Assembly (NCBI GenBank): GCA_014237715.1
Contig: JAAZZG010000002.1
Coordinates: 124,001 to 188,000 of the forward strand
Origin: Acidimicrobiales bacterium
GTDB lineage: Bacteria; Actinomycetota; Acidimicrobiia; Acidimicrobiales; MedAcidi-G1
Length of the DNA: 64,000 nucleotides
Reading direction: 5' to 3'
Shown in pieces: positions 31,445 to 36,870 of the stretch. Position 1 is the first letter of the stretch. Each line of letters opens with the position of its first letter. Under the pieces are notes generated by a model. That model ran no database searches and was not told the DNA's origin. It saw nothing but the letters and a program-made list of their open reading frames with translations. Both the position numbers and the translations under genes were made by a program.

Positions 31445-33201
31445 TGGCGACAGACCGGCAACGACGTACCGAACCGCAGGCCATGTCCGGTGGCCTTGCC
31501 ACGGTCGAGGCCCTGCAGGTCGAGGGGGTCCGCCACGTATTTGGACTGATCGGCTCGGCTGCCATGGAGTTGTTCGACGGGCTCCACGACGCCGACGACA
31601 TCACCTATATCGGTGTCCACGACGAGCGCACCGGCACGCACATGGCTGACGGGTACGCCCGGGCCTCCGGCCGGGCCGGGGTAGTCCTAGCCGGGCAGAA
31701 CGGCCCCGGTGCCACCAACTTGGTCACCGGGGTGGCCCAGGCCGCGGCAGCCTTCTCGCCGGTGGTGTCCCTGGCCGGTGCACTGGCCACCGGCCACGTA
31801 TACCGCGACGCCTTCCAAGAGGTCGATCAGGACGCCCTGTTCCGCCCCATCACGAAGCGGACCTGGACCGTCCCGTCTACCGAACGGATCCCCGAAATGA
31901 TTCGCGAGGCGTTCCGGGTGGCGTTGTCCCCCCAGCGAGGGCCCGTCCACCTGAACCTGCCCCGCGACGTGCTGGCCGGCACCGCCAATTTCGACCCGCC
32001 GTGGGACCCGGCGGCTGCCCGGGTGGTCGACCTGCCAGCCGGTGCCGACGGGCCGGTGCAGCGGGCTGCTGCCCTGTTGACCACAGCTGAGCGGCCGGTC
32101 ATCGTGGCTGGCGCCGGGATCAAGAATGGGGGTCGATTCGCCGAGGTGATTGACCTGGCCGAGAAGCTGGACGCCCCTATCGCCACCTCGCCCGGCCACG
32201 GAGATGCGATCCCCGCCGACCACCGGCTGTGCGCCGGGCAGATGGGTCCCCGTGGCAATCCGGTGGCGTCCCGTCTGGTATGCGAGGCCGACGTCATCCT
32301 CGCCCTGGGTACCCGGCTCGGGTTCAACTCAACCTTCTATTCGTGGGACAACGTCAACCGGGACGCTGCGATCATCCAGGTGGAAATCGAGCCCACGGCC
32401 ATCGGCCGGTTCTTCCCCGTCGAGGTCGGCATCCACGGCGATGCCCCGACGGTGGCCGGGCAGTTGGCCGGGCAGTTGGCCGCCGCCCTAGCCCCCGGCA
32501 GGGGGGACGGGACCACAGACGCCAAGTGGGCCCGGACTTTCGCCGCTGACCGGGCCGCCCACCGAGTCCGGCGTGAGGAGCAGGCATCCGGCGCCTACCC
32601 AATCCAGCCCTCGGGCCTGTTCCGCGAGCTGCGAGCCGTACTGCCCCGTAACGCCATGATCACCTTGGATGCCGGGACGCTGTGCCTACAGGCCACCGAC
32701 GCCCTCGACCACTTCGAGCCTCCCTGCCTGTTCAGCCCGCTGGACTTCGGCCTCGTAGGCTTCTCTTTCGCCTGCGGCCTTGGCGTAAAGCTGGCCCGTC
32801 CCGACCGCCCGGTGATCAGCCTGATGGGTGATGGCGGATTCGGTATGACGCTGTCGGAGCTGTCCACGGCGGTCAGCCATGACATCCCTACTGTCACCGT
32901 GGTCATGGACAACGGCTGCTGGGGCGCCGAAAAGGCCTACCAACGCGACTTCTTCGACGGCCGATACATCGGCGCAGACGTGCACAGCCCCCCATTCGAC
33001 CGGGTCGCCGAGCTCTACGGGGCCGTCGGTCTACGAGCCGAACGTATTGACGAGGTGGGCGAGGCCGTCCGGGCTGGGCTCGAGTCGGGTCGCCCCGCCG
33101 TGGTCGTCGTCGAGGTGGACGGCGATGCGCTCTACAGCTTCCGACGCGACTCGTTCGCCCATCGGACCCCCACCGACCCCAACTCGGAGAAACTTTCATG
33201 A
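31444..33201 (+). CDS. Thiamine diphosphate-dependent enzyme, Xsc/acetolactate-synthase-like
   Basis: A 585-residue ThDP enzyme. The cofactor-activating Glu61 is in GVHDERTGTHMADG, and the ThDP motif runs from LMGDGGFGM to VMDNGCWGAEKAYQRDFFDG. The last segment resembles the sulfoacetaldehyde acetyltransferase at 15669 (WGAEKKNQ), but the N-terminal Xsc signature (HEQGAAHM) is altered to HDERTGTHM, so I do not call it Xsc. It is coupled to the hydrolase (TGATG) and the LLM gene (ATGA). It may cleave or join 2-oxo acids; the substrate is unknown. Confidence 0.85.
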   Translation: MATDRQRRTEPQAMSGGLATVEALQVEGVRHVFGLIGSAAMELFDGLHDADDITYIGVHDERTGTHMADGYARASGRAGVVLAGQNGPGATNLVTGVAQAAAAFSPVVSLAGALATGHVYRDAFQEVDQDALFRPITKRTWTVPSTERIPEMIREAFRVALSPQRGPVHLNLPRDVLAGTANFDPPWDPAAARVVDLPAGADGPVQRAAALLTTAERPVIVAGAGIKNGGRFAEVIDLAEKLDAPIATSPGHGDAIPADHRLCAGQMGPRGNPVASRLVCEADVILALGTRLGFNSTFYSWDNVNRDAAIIQVEIEPTAIGRFFPVEVGIHGDAPTVAGQLAGQLAAALAPGRGDGTTDAKWARTFAADRAAHRVRREEQASGAYPIQPSGLFRELRAVLPRNAMITLDAGTLCLQATDALDHFEPPCLFSPLDFGLVGFSFACGLGVKLARPDRPVISLMGDGGFGMTLSELSTAVSHDIPTVTVVMDNGCWGAEKAYQRDFFDGRYIGADVHSPPFDRVAELYGAVGLRAERIDEVGEAVRAGLESGRPAVVVVEVDGDALYSFRRDSFAHRTPTDPNSEKLS

Positions 33202-34235
33202 AGTTCCAACTGGCCATCAACTTGGAGCGGCTCGACGACTCGCTCGCCATGGACGACGTGGCCCGCCACACCCTCGAGATGGTCCAGATGGCCGAGGCCG
33301 GAGGATTCACCACTGCATGGGCCGCTGAGCACCACGCCCTTGAGATGACCATCGCCCCCAACCCGCTGCAGATTCTGACGTGGTGGGCCGGCCATACCAG
33401 CCGGATCCGCCTGGGTACCGCGGTAGCCGTGGCCGCCTACTGGAACCCCATCAAGCTGGCCGGCGAAGCGGCGTTCCTGGACCTGGTGAGTGACGGCCGC
33501 CTCGAGTTCGGCATCGGATCGGGGGCCTACCAGCGCGAGTTCGACCGGATCCACCCCGGCCTTAAGCAGTCCGATGCTTGGCGCTACATGCAGGAGATGC
33601 TGCCCGTCCTCAAAGAGTTGTGGGCTGGCGACTACGCCCACGACGGTGAGTTCTGGTCGTTCCCGACGTCGACATCGGTACCCAAGCCAGTCCAGCAGCC
33701 CCACCCTCCGATCTGGGTGGCCGCCCGGTCACCCATCACGTTCGACTACGCAGTGGCCAACGGGTGCAATGTCATGTCGTGGCCCATCGCCCGACCGTTT
33801 GCCGAGGCCGAGCTCTACAAGGAGCAGTTGGACGCCTCGATCGCCGCCAGCCCCGAAGCACCCCGGCCCACGTGGGCGCTGATGCGCCACACCGCGGTGT
33901 ACGACTCGGCCGATCAGTGGATGGTGCCCGTGGAGGCCGCCCAACAGCAGCTCAGCCAGTTCGAGAACCTGTTCAAGAACCTGGGCGACGTGCAAGACGG
34001 ATTCCCGGCAACCATCCCCATGGACCAGGTGACCAACGCTGCGGACTACGAACCGACCACGTTGAGCGAGAATCTCCTATTCGGCACCCCCGACGAGGTG
34101 ATCGCCAAACTCCGGCGCTACGAAGTGCTCGGCGTGGACGAGTTCATCTACTACGCCAGCCTTGGCCTGGGGCTCGACGAGCAGAAGCGGTCCATGGAGC
34201 TGTTCTGCGACGAGGTCATCCCTGCCTTCAGCTGA
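33198..34235 (+). CDS. LLM class flavin-dependent oxidoreductase
   Basis: A 345-residue luciferase-like monooxygenase (TIM barrel). Typical segments are FTTAWAAEHHALEMTIAPNP, IRLGTAVAVAAYWNPIKLAG and EFGIGSGAYQREFD. Members use FMN or F420 to oxidise organosulfur, amine or alkane compounds. Its ATG overlaps the ThDP enzyme stop, placing it as the last gene of the 29850 operon. Sulfonate cleavage is one possibility given the nearby xsc, but this is a guess. Confidence 0.86.
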   Translation: MKFQLAINLERLDDSLAMDDVARHTLEMVQMAEAGGFTTAWAAEHHALEMTIAPNPLQILTWWAGHTSRIRLGTAVAVAAYWNPIKLAGEAAFLDLVSDGRLEFGIGSGAYQREFDRIHPGLKQSDAWRYMQEMLPVLKELWAGDYAHDGEFWSFPTSTSVPKPVQQPHPPIWVAARSPITFDYAVANGCNVMSWPIARPFAEAELYKEQLDASIAASPEAPRPTWALMRHTAVYDSADQWMVPVEAAQQQLSQFENLFKNLGDVQDGFPATIPMDQVTNAADYEPTTLSENLLFGTPDEVIAKLRRYEVLGVDEFIYYASLGLGLDEQKRSMELFCDEVIPAFS

Positions 34236-34238
34236 TCC

Positions 34239-34257
34239 CCGGGTCCCCGTGACCCGG
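34239..34257. terminator. Perfect hairpin between convergent genes
   Basis: CCGGGTC - CCCGT - GACCCGG forms a perfect 7-bp stem with a 5-base loop in the 32-bp gap between the LLM gene and the selenoprotein gene. The convergent placement suggests a bidirectional terminator, although no T-tract follows. Confidence 0.5.
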
Positions 34258-34267
34258 CACCGACCGG

Positions 34268-34819
34268 TCAGTCCTCAGGGATCCACGACTCCATCGACAC
34301 GCCGAGGCCGTCCACGATCCGGTTGGCGTAGGCGTAGTAGGCCACCACCTCACAGATGTCGAGCACGTCGCGATCACTGAAGCCGACGGACCGCAGGGCC
34401 TCCACGTCGGCCTCCACCATGTCGCCGGGATGGGCGGTCAACTTTTCCGCGTAGGCCAGCATCGCCACGCGCTGGTCCGACAGGCCGGCGGTGCGCCAGT
34501 CGTCCTCGATGGCGGCCAGCAGGTCGTCGTCCTTCAGGAGTCGGCGCAGACCGCGCCCGTGGTGAATCGTTCAGTAGTGGCAGTCGTTGTACCGACTGAC
34601 CACCAGGGCCACCAGCTCGCGTTCGACCTTTCGCAGCGTCTTCGTGCCGGCCATGGCCGACCGGTAGACGGCGAGGTGCCCGGCCAGAGCGTTCGGGTTC
34701 AGGGAGTGGATTTGCATGACGTTGTCCACCCGGCCATGGGCGTCATCGACAACCTGGCCGTAGAGGTCAGCCAGCGGGCCCTCCCACTCGTCCTCACGGA
34801 TGGTTTGGATCCAAGCCAC
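34268..34819 (-). CDS. AhpD-like selenoprotein with CxxU redox motif (TGA at 34571-34573 read as selenocysteine)
   Basis: A peroxidase-related / carboxymuconolactone-decarboxylase fold protein. Two open segments in the same frame (82 and 100 codons) are separated only by one TGA. Reading it as Sec83 gives a 183-residue protein of normal length with Cys80-His-Tyr-Sec83-x2-His-His, exactly where cysteine homologues have a CHYCxxHH type motif. The flanks ELVALVVSRYNDCHY and LSDQRV...LAYAEKLTAHP are both family-typical, so the frame is conserved on both sides. A SECIS-like hairpin follows the TGA. Such CxxC proteins act as thiol peroxidases or reductases; Sec would raise reactivity. It starts 3 bases after the SRPBCC gene. 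The chief alternative, a nonsense mutation, is unlikely given motif position and hairpin. Confidence 0.9.
34543..34557 (-). promoter_or_regulatory. Bacterial SECIS-like hairpin for Sec insertion
   Basis: On the coding strand GGCGC-GGTCT-GCGCC forms a perfect 5-bp stem with loop GGUCU. The loop begins 18 nt after the TGA, the same distance and loop sequence as I recall for the E. coli fdhF element recognised by SelB. It lies within the coding region, as bacterial SECIS elements do. Confidence 0.85.
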
Positions 34820-34822
34820 TGG

Positions 34823-35326
34823 TCAGTCCTCCCCGGCACCCGGGCGGCCCTGGCCGGGGGCGACGGTCCGGGCCAGGATGCCCAAGGTGGCCCGTAGGTT
34901 GGTCTCGCTGACCACCGGGAAGATGGCGTCGACGGCCGCCTCCCAGTCTGGGTGGACGTCGGTCCAGTCGTAGGTGGAGGTGACCAGGGTGCCCCCGTCG
35001 ATTGGCTCCAGGTCGTAGCCGTATACGTGGCCGATGGGGGGCTGCAGGTTGGCACTCTCGATGCCCCAGGCGATGGCCCGGTCGACCTCGAAGCGGGTGA
35101 TGACCACCTCAACCTCGTACTCGCCGAGGGGGAAGTCCTGTAGCGACTCGCGGTCCATCTGTACGGTGAATCGGTCGCCGACTGCGGACACTGGGTCGCC
35201 GCCGGCCGACATGAGCATCCCCGAGGCGTCGATCGACACGTGCCCGGCCGGGCTGGCTAGCACCTCGAAGATGGTCCCTGACGATGCGCAGATCGCCCGT
35301 TGAACACAGATCCGTCGTTCGCCCAT
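34823..35326 (-). CDS. SRPBCC/polyketide-cyclase-like protein
   Basis: A 167-residue protein with the START-like SRPBCC fold pattern: ASSGTIFEVLASPAGHVSID at the N-terminus and a C-terminal helix VVSETNLRATLGILART, with GGTLVTSTYDWTDV between. Members bind hydrophobic ligands in a deep cavity. ATG 35326 is preferred; GTG 35344 would add six residues. It is 3 bases upstream of the selenoprotein gene, so the two are co-transcribed and possibly act on the same lipid or oxidised compound. Function is unknown. Confidence 0.78.
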   Translation of the reverse strand: MGERRICVQRAICASSGTIFEVLASPAGHVSIDASGMLMSAGGDPVSAVGDRFTVQMDRESLQDFPLGEYEVEVVITRFEVDRAIAWGIESANLQPPIGHVYGYDLEPIDGGTLVTSTYDWTDVHPDWEAAVDAIFPVVSETNLRATLGILARTVAPGQGRPGAGED

Positions 35327-35455
35327 GTCCCAAAGTATGCCCACTCAGTCCTGTCCTGGAGAATCCGGCAGGCGTTTGACCCCCTGCCATCGTCTATGGG
35401 AGCCTCGAATCGTCCACCCCAATGGCGGGGTGGACGGAACAGAGGGGTACAAACC

Positions 35456-36058
35456 ATGACTTGGAACTTTGAGGGGAACTATTACGAGAACTGCTCGTGT
35501 TCAGCGGTCTGTCCGTGCACTAGTTCCAATATGCAAGCCCCGGCTACCAGCGACCGGTGCAACGCCGTATTCGCGTTCGACCTCACGTCGGGTGACGTCA
35601 ATGGCACAGACGTGTCCGGCTGCAAGATGATGCTCATGGTCGACAGCCCGGCAGTCATGGCGAGTGGCGACTGGAAGGCAGGCCTGGTCATCGACTCGGG
35701 CGCGTCCGACGACCAGGTAGAGGCCATCGGCGCCGTCATGAGCGGTGACCTCGGCGGCCCCCCGGCCGCCCTCGGCCCACTGATCAGCGATTTCGTAGGC
35801 ATTGAGCGCCATCCGATCTCGTTCACCGTGGACGGCGATGACCAAACGGTGACCGTTGGTGACTCAGTCTCATTCACCGTCCAGCAGGAGTTCAGCACCG
35901 CCGGAGACCCCGTCCAGCTCACCGGCATCGACACCCACCCAGCCGGCCCCGTGCTGAACGTGTTTCGCGTATCGGCTTCGTCGGTGTCGATCATGGGCAT
36001 GGAGTTCGGTGGAGCGGGCCTGAGTTGCTTCTCCAACCCCTTCTCTTGGGAGGGCTGA
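35456..36058 (+). CDS. DUF1326 family protein
   Basis: A 200-residue protein with the DUF1326 opening WNFEGNYYENCSCSAVCPCT, where the cysteine cluster CSCxxxCPC may bind metal. No signal peptide is present. GAGGGG lies 10 bases before ATG 35456; the frame open from 35300 is not supported. The gene is immediately followed by a DUF2182 membrane protein, a recurring pair in bacteria, often in metal or chemotaxis-unrelated gene sets. Function is unknown. Confidence 0.85.
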   Translation: MTWNFEGNYYENCSCSAVCPCTSSNMQAPATSDRCNAVFAFDLTSGDVNGTDVSGCKMMLMVDSPAVMASGDWKAGLVIDSGASDDQVEAIGAVMSGDLGGPPAALGPLISDFVGIERHPISFTVDGDDQTVTVGDSVSFTVQQEFSTAGDPVQLTGIDTHPAGPVLNVFRVSASSVSIMGMEFGGAGLSCFSNPFSWEG

Positions 36059-36870
36059 ACCCCACGCCGACTGGGTCGGCGGATAACTCTCCTGGGGACG
36101 ATTCCAGGAGGTCAGCCACCACCATCCACCTGTTGGGCACGGCCTGCTGGGTCGCGACCATCGGGTGGGCCGTCCAAATGGACATGGGCCTTTGGGGCAT
36201 GCCCGGCACGATGGGCATGTCGTTCGGTTCGTTCCTCGTGATGTGGACCCTGATGATGGCCGCCATGATGCTGTCGTCGATGGCGCCGCTGGCTCTCCTT
36301 TACAGCCGCACCATCACCACCCACCGAGGGCCCCGCCTAACCGCGTTCGGCAGCGGCTACATCATGGCGTGGGGGGCCACCGGCGTGGCGGCCTTCATCG
36401 CCGCCGACTTCTTCGCCGAGATAGCCGCCGACCGGCCGACCGCCGCCCAGTGGGTGGCGGTCGCCTGCTTCATGGCAGCCGGTTTCTACCAGTTGACTCC
36501 ACTGAAGATGCGATGTCTGGAACACTGCCGGAGCCCGCTGGCCCACCTGATGCACTACATCGGGTTCAAAGGTCCAGCGCGCGACATGCGGGCCGGCGCC
36601 CATCATGGAATGTTCTGCCTCGGGTGCTGCTGGGCGCTGATGGTCCTGATGGTGGCCTTCGGAGTGATGAATGTGGCCGCCATGGTCGGCCTAGCCCTGG
36701 TCATCGCCGTGGAGAAGCACTGGCGACACGGTGAACGGTTCGCCCGCACCGTCGGGGTCGTGGCAGTGGGCTGGGCACTGTTGATCGTGGTCGACCCCAG
36801 CTTCGCCCCAGGCCTTGACCCCGACGCCATCATGCAGATGGATATGCCAACGGGTGATATGGGCAGCTGA
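36025..36870 (+). CDS. DUF2182 family membrane protein
   Basis: A 281-residue protein with about six hydrophobic segments, rich in Met, His and Cys. Notable stretches are MWTLMMAAMMLSSMAPLALL, a CLEHCRSPLAHLMHY loop and GAHHGMFCLGCCWALM, which look like metal-binding membrane sites. The TTG at 36025 overlaps the DUF1326 gene; the true start may be later since the first 30 residues show no family similarity. It pairs with DUF1326, suggesting a shared metal-related role, possibly copper. That role is inferred. Confidence 0.8.
   Translation: MLLQPLLLGGLNPTPTGSADNSPGDDSRRSATTIHLLGTACWVATIGWAVQMDMGLWGMPGTMGMSFGSFLVMWTLMMAAMMLSSMAPLALLYSRTITTHRGPRLTAFGSGYIMAWGATGVAAFIAADFFAEIAADRPTAAQWVAVACFMAAGFYQLTPLKMRCLEHCRSPLAHLMHYIGFKGPARDMRAGAHHGMFCLGCCWALMVLMVAFGVMNVAAMVGLALVIAVEKHWRHGERFARTVGVVAVGWALLIVVDPSFAPGLDPDAIMQMDMPTGDMGS

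Follow-up and report, generated by a model that had tools for sequence, protein, structure and literature searches.

The 64,000-nt window analysed here (the whole stretch of DNA) contains, on its minus strand between positions 34268 and 34819, two same-frame segments separated by one TGA codon, and the locus raises the question of whether this is a broken AhpD-like gene or an intact one. We consider it very probable that the apparently broken gene is intact and encodes an AhpD-like selenoprotein, one of its stop codons being read as selenocysteine. Loci, genomes and contigs are cited by their L, G and C numbers where they have to be told apart.

The divided reading frame and conservation of its TGA

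34268..34819, minus strand: coding sequence of the predicted AhpD-like selenoprotein, 183 residues plus stop (TIGR01926, Pfam CMD, alignment, AhpD-like fold)
34571..34573, minus strand: predicted selenocysteine UGA codon, Sec83, second CxxC position (TGA position shared by relatives, Cys in distant homologues)

Reading the minus strand from 34819 to 34268 gives a GTG start codon at 34819, a final TGA stop at 34268-34270 and a single in-frame TGA at codon 83, within the motif N-D-C80-H-Y-U83-T-I-H-H87. Two claims of the sequence-only reading are thereby confirmed: one TGA splits two same-frame segments, and (by translation and by 43 further orthologous loci) it falls at the second cysteine of the CxxC motif, giving Cys80-His-Tyr-Sec83. 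The list of open reading frames (minimum 70 aa) includes only the 82-aa first half in the frame of the AhpD-like gene; genes of this type are cut in two by ORF finders and can therefore be overlooked in annotations. A scan of the window for frames divided by a TGA and coding-like in codon use to either side of it gave 222 candidates with at least 45 codons per side. When these were scored against the codon use of eight genes of the window (including the upstream neighbour), TGA 34571-34573 ranked second, behind the stop between the upstream neighbour and the AhpD-like gene. This upstream stop (TGA, window 34823-34825) shares the frame of the selenoprotein gene, so that a blind read-through of TGA would fuse both genes.

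The search of 298 genomes gave 75 matches with at least 57% identity spanning codon 83, distributed in 74 genomes (own included), and all 75 have one TGA inside (the G099 match carries a TAG in addition). A fragment in G143 (71%, residues 131-182 only) was excluded from the 75 matches, and three genomes with more distant one-TGA matches were excluded from the 74 (G208, 41%; G063, 39%; G072, 33%). In the window's family f1, 45 of the 48 genomes have a match of at least 57% covering codon 83; no such match was found in G014, G041 and G045. Placement of the TGA at codon 83 was confirmed in the fetched loci, and for the other genomes of the 298-genome set the count refers to one TGA somewhere inside the match. 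All 43 further orthologous loci that were read (29 from the 298-genome search and 14 from named records, some genomes being represented twice) carry the TGA in the second CxxC position, and C-x-Y-U-x-x-H-H is present in 44/44 loci when the window's own locus is included (30 from the search, 14 named records). The titles of the 14 records name Acidimicrobiaceae/Acidimicrobiales (9), Candidatus Microthrix (2), Actinomycetota (1), "bacterium" (1) and Planctomycetaceae (1). The last one, L052 (Planctomycetaceae bacterium RS383), has motif surroundings identical to those of Acidimicrobiaceae RS454 (L053), and its contig is therefore probably misbinned.

Beyond these genomes, a phylum sample (396 genomes) added four genomes with matches of 58-66% identity, all of them CHYU, and more distant one-TGA forms (34-47%) alongside stop-free forms (32-38%). 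Position 83 is Cys in L063-L066 and L072, five aligned out of 18 distant loci, as well as in the structures 3c1l and 2pfx, which is the residue that an alignment with homologues had been expected to reveal at the TGA. The median dN/dS was 0.18 before the TGA and 0.255 after it (calculated from the 520 pairs before and 560 pairs after it whose dS lies between 0 and 2), values that indicate purifying selection on both sides.

A pseudogene or a sequencing error, in which the TGA would have replaced a normal Cys codon through nonsense mutation or faulty base calling, agrees with the 82-aa half that stands alone in the ORF list. This explanation was rejected, as the TGA is conserved across other genomes (75/75 close matches, and the same TGA in the 14 named records); the purifying selection on both sides and the synonymous codons frozen at the hairpin described below also argue against it, and we regard it as extremely improbable.

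The hairpin behind the TGA and the selenocysteine machinery

34543..34557, minus strand: SECIS-type hairpin, 5-bp stem GGCGC/GCGCC, loop GGUCU (34548-34552), 13 nt after the UGA

The GGUCU-loop hairpin noticed 13 nt behind the TGA in the sequence-only reading has stood up to comparison: its loop and stem are conserved, and it lies within the constraints given for bacterial SECIS elements in the accessible text of a published review (PMC13188914), namely a loop of 3-9 nt, a stem of 4-16 bp, two G at the start of the loop, a UGA-to-loop distance of 16-37 nt and an energy of at most -7.5 kcal/mol. The corresponding values in the window are a 5-nt loop, a 5-bp stem, GG, 18 nt and -9.9 kcal/mol (36-nt stretch). 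The GGUCU loop is invariant and the 5-bp stem is fully paired in 36/36 distinct sequences (distinct 72-nt stretches among the 44 loci; the Cys form L063 is outside the 44). Covariation in the hairpin is a thin signal: one two-sided change (L062) and six one-sided changes among 34 distinct rows, equalled in 8 of 500 shuffles.

The most informative variation was found in the codons. Of the conserved residues whose codons are 4- or 6-fold degenerate (46 in all), the least codon variation is shown by the four at +5 to +8 after the TGA (CGG CGC GGT CTG). The hairpin Gly is encoded by GGT in 36/36 sequences, compared with 59/414 Gly codons pooled elsewhere in these genes, and random synonymous recoding produces the stem and loop in 1.9% of cases; these sequences and genomes are related, so that P values overstate independence and the hairpin and codon numbers do not come from independent sequences. 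At the level of sequence, this codon-level freezing is the strongest sign of a SECIS element, whose constraint on the RNA becomes visible as frozen synonymous codons.

Folding energies were less distinctive. The z-scores of hairpin stability were modest (-1.02, -0.40 and -1.36 in three stretches), and a 66-nt folding around the UGA gave a different lowest-energy structure. The hairpin is part of the lowest-energy fold in 35/36 sequences at 36 nt, 31 at 48 nt, 22 at 60 nt and 24 at 72 nt, and the 15 nt of the hairpin, taken alone, attain -7.5 kcal/mol in 30/36. Given the alternative lowest-energy folds at 66 nt and in the longer stretches of relatives, stability was not taken as proof. An Rfam search of 34200-34900 (E<=10) detected no SECIS family, its only match being an L31 leader on the other strand (E=5.3). 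Five distant TGA forms in the phylum (L085-L089) have neither a GGUCU hairpin nor an RRGLRR peptide, and perhaps form a separate Sec branch that uses a SECIS of another kind.

The host genome (2.33 Mb, 75 contigs, 92.6% complete) encodes the complete set of genes that had been predicted for this lineage: selA, selB, selD and tRNA-Sec(UCA). A lack of selB and tRNA-Sec, named in the sequence-only reading as evidence against a selenoprotein, is therefore not seen. The tRNA-Sec is located at C22:227315-227406 (Rfam 67.5 bits; ARAGORN anticodon TCA), away from the selA-selB locus, in which ARAGORN identified tRNA-Pro only. Adjoining each other at L007:4855-8019 are selA (TIGR00474, 396.7 bits) and selB (TIGR00475, 282.5 bits), and selD is on C11 (352 bits; 358.2 bits with its own TGA read through). 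The in-frame TGA of SelD (L018:1486-2529, G000 C11; motif GAGUGC) makes it probably a Sec-containing selenophosphate synthetase. Across the 298 genomes, selB (E<=1e-60) was present in 72/74 TGA genomes versus 117/224 others (Fisher P 9e-15, kinship ignored); this threshold assigns selB to 189/298 genomes and the family's own cut-off to 175/298. The TGA genomes in which selB was not found at E<=1e-60 were G026 and G036, both 85% complete.

Genome-wide recoding of TGA to an ordinary amino acid (e.g. Trp), which would also place a TGA within a conserved frame, was rejected because TGA serves as stop in the same genes (31/36 orthologous CDSs use it as their own stop), and it has next to no probability in view of the neighbouring gene 33198-34235, which stops at TGA, the redox Cys position occupied by the inside TGA, and the presence of tRNA-Sec, selA, selB and selD in the genome.

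With the TGA read as selenocysteine, translation would start at the GTG at 34819; on reaching the UGA at 34571-34573, the ribosome would find a hairpin just behind it recruiting SelB with Sec-tRNA(Sec), selenocysteine would be inserted in place of termination, and synthesis would stop at the second TGA.

Family, predicted activity and neighbourhood

The full-length translation belongs to TIGR01926 (peroxidase-related, AhpD-like; 149.8 bits, cut-off 81.8), the match running from residue 3 to residue 175 (profile positions 2-174 out of 178), so that both sides of the TGA are covered; Pfam CMD was matched with 43.6 bits (cut-off 23). The predicted fold (mean pLDDT 93.9; model from a 31-sequence alignment of the window and loci) has as its best PDB matches 6k40, 3c1l, 2pfx, 2oyo and 2prr, all AhpD or peroxidase-related proteins, with a TM of up to 0.88 by query length and 27-34% identity. 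The proton relay described for the AhpD protein PA0269 (2o4d) in the accessible part of its report (Glu36, Cys48, Tyr50, Cys51, His55; PMC3141380) has its counterparts, at the same spacing, in Glu68, Cys80, Tyr82, Sec83 and His87 of the window protein; PA0269, 3c1l and 2pfx have Cys where the window protein has Sec. In the 31-sequence alignment (U written as C), columns 80, 82, 83 and 87 are invariant, and Glu68 is conserved in at least 90%.

The model depicts an all-helical oxidoreductase of the AhpD type with a Cys80-His-Tyr-Sec83 pair. The sequence-only reading had proposed a thiol peroxidase or reductase of high activity, a level of activity that remains putative. From the conserved AhpD active-site residues we infer a peroxidase or disulfide-reductase role, the most economical reading being a selenolate/thiol pair that would reduce peroxides or recycle a peroxiredoxin. 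Most likely, the Sec83 selenolate would attack a hydroperoxide or the disulfide of an oxidised partner (e.g. peroxiredoxin), and a selenenylsulfide with Cys80 would then form and be reduced by a cellular thiol system.

The main functional rival is a selenoprotein with another task, either a redox sensor or a reductive dehalogenase like Bmp8, an AhpD-fold debrominase whose chemistry is reductive dehalogenation. The Bmp8 fold is similar (TM 0.76-0.80 by query length), the luciferase-like monooxygenase and the TPP enzyme among the window neighbours hint at catabolism, not peroxide stress, and in other lineages aconitase X is encoded downstream, on the other strand. However, identity to Bmp8 is 14-15%, versus 27-34% to the peroxidase-related AhpD proteins, the five AhpD relay positions are retained, and the neighbours vary between lineages. 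We consider this alternative unlikely, and the peroxidase or disulfide-reductase role is preferred.

34823..35344, minus strand: upstream gene, 173 residues, perhaps SRPBCC/polyketide-cyclase-like (PF10604 Polyketide_cyc2, E=0.0088)
L028-L034, L036-L038, L040, L043-L045, L048, L056, L058 and L059, opposite strand: aconitase X loci

The pairing with an SRPBCC protein suggested by the sequence-only reading is weak. The two genes are adjacent in the window, and matches to the upstream neighbour are beside the gene in 11/44 loci, all close relatives (L016, L020-L023, L025, L027, L049-L051, L054). Its adjacency was thus seen only in part of the genus: the neighbour was found beside the gene in none of L028-L048 and L056-L062, seven of the loci without it being from the same genus (L028, L029, L031-L033, L037, L048), and the SRPBCC-like match (16.8 bits against Polyketide_cyc2) is under the cut-off of 27.4. 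Co-transcription of both genes is possible, the link being weak. Genes for DUF1326 and PpoB2 ("copper chaperone") proteins are adjacent in the window (35300-36870, plus strand). Aconitase X (large and swivel parts) was found downstream of the gene within about 1 kb in the 18 loci given above (Pfam check on two), and was not detected in L016 and L020-L027. Clustering of the neighbours in 39/44 loci (after removal of five duplicates; flanks no longer than 1.5-3 kb) gave three ORF clusters present in 39/39 loci, which include the AhpD gene frames and whose examples overlap the gene or its opposite strand; among the 14 largest clusters listed, and with these short flanks, no separate neighbour was common to all 39 loci.

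Five AhpC-TSA matches were found in the genome, two of them with an inside TGA: L090 (G000 C44, peroxiredoxin-like; TPGU) and L091 (G000 C33; UGC), the matches beginning at 1501. A relay in which both steps use selenium is therefore conceivable. A joint and quite speculative reading, to which we give little probability, would combine a peroxide relay of this kind, in which the peroxiredoxin-type TPGU protein (L090) would be reduced by the CHYU protein, with a SECIS hairpin that seems to dictate R-R-G-L-R after the active site, so that an RNA need, and not an enzyme need, would have shaped part of the active-site helix.

Relation to known AhpD-like selenoproteins

The claim that AhpD-like CxxU proteins were already known as a selenoprotein family of marine metagenomes agrees with the accessible text of two reports: the Sargasso Sea study of 2005, with 27 AhpD-like CxxU sequences (COG2128) and, for its new families, SECIS-like hairpins following the UGA (PMC1088965), and the GOS study of 2008, with 299 sequences under "AhpD-like 1" (PMC2398784). 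Reviews of 2022 and 2026 list "AhpD-like protein, CxxU" with the same example accession (PMC9312934, PMC13188914), the latter placing the family under TIGR01926. As the family is present in this literature from 2005 to 2026, so far as its text was accessible, the window protein belongs to a known kind. A literature search of limited reach on selenoproteins or selenocysteine in Acidimicrobi- found no report.

A second AhpD-type selenoprotein candidate was observed in the same genome (L017:946-2001, G000 C11; CFYUT), assigned to NF041238 with 342.9 bits (cut-off 175) and likewise having a GGUCU-loop hairpin behind its TGA. NF041238, an AhpD-related (seleno)protein family that corresponds to "hypothetical protein 1" of the Sargasso Sea according to the accessible text of the 2026 review (PMC13188914), shares the AhpD-like domain and CxxU with the window protein, but is another family of 352 residues, against which the window protein scores 54.8 bits, below the cut-off of 175.

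Through the present locus, a selenoprotein family first known from metagenomic reads can be assigned to a defined actinobacterial lineage that has Sec machinery, and the small, confidently modelled protein would lend itself to measuring a Sec/Cys swap. The published AhpD-like CxxU proteins (COG2128/TIGR01926) and the window protein share the same family model and the Cys-x-x-Sec motif, and in a comparison based on the accessible text descriptions no difference in kind was found. What the window protein adds to them is a documented host lineage, the Sec machinery of that lineage and a nearly invariant GGUCU hairpin, encoded by R/G-R-G-L-R.
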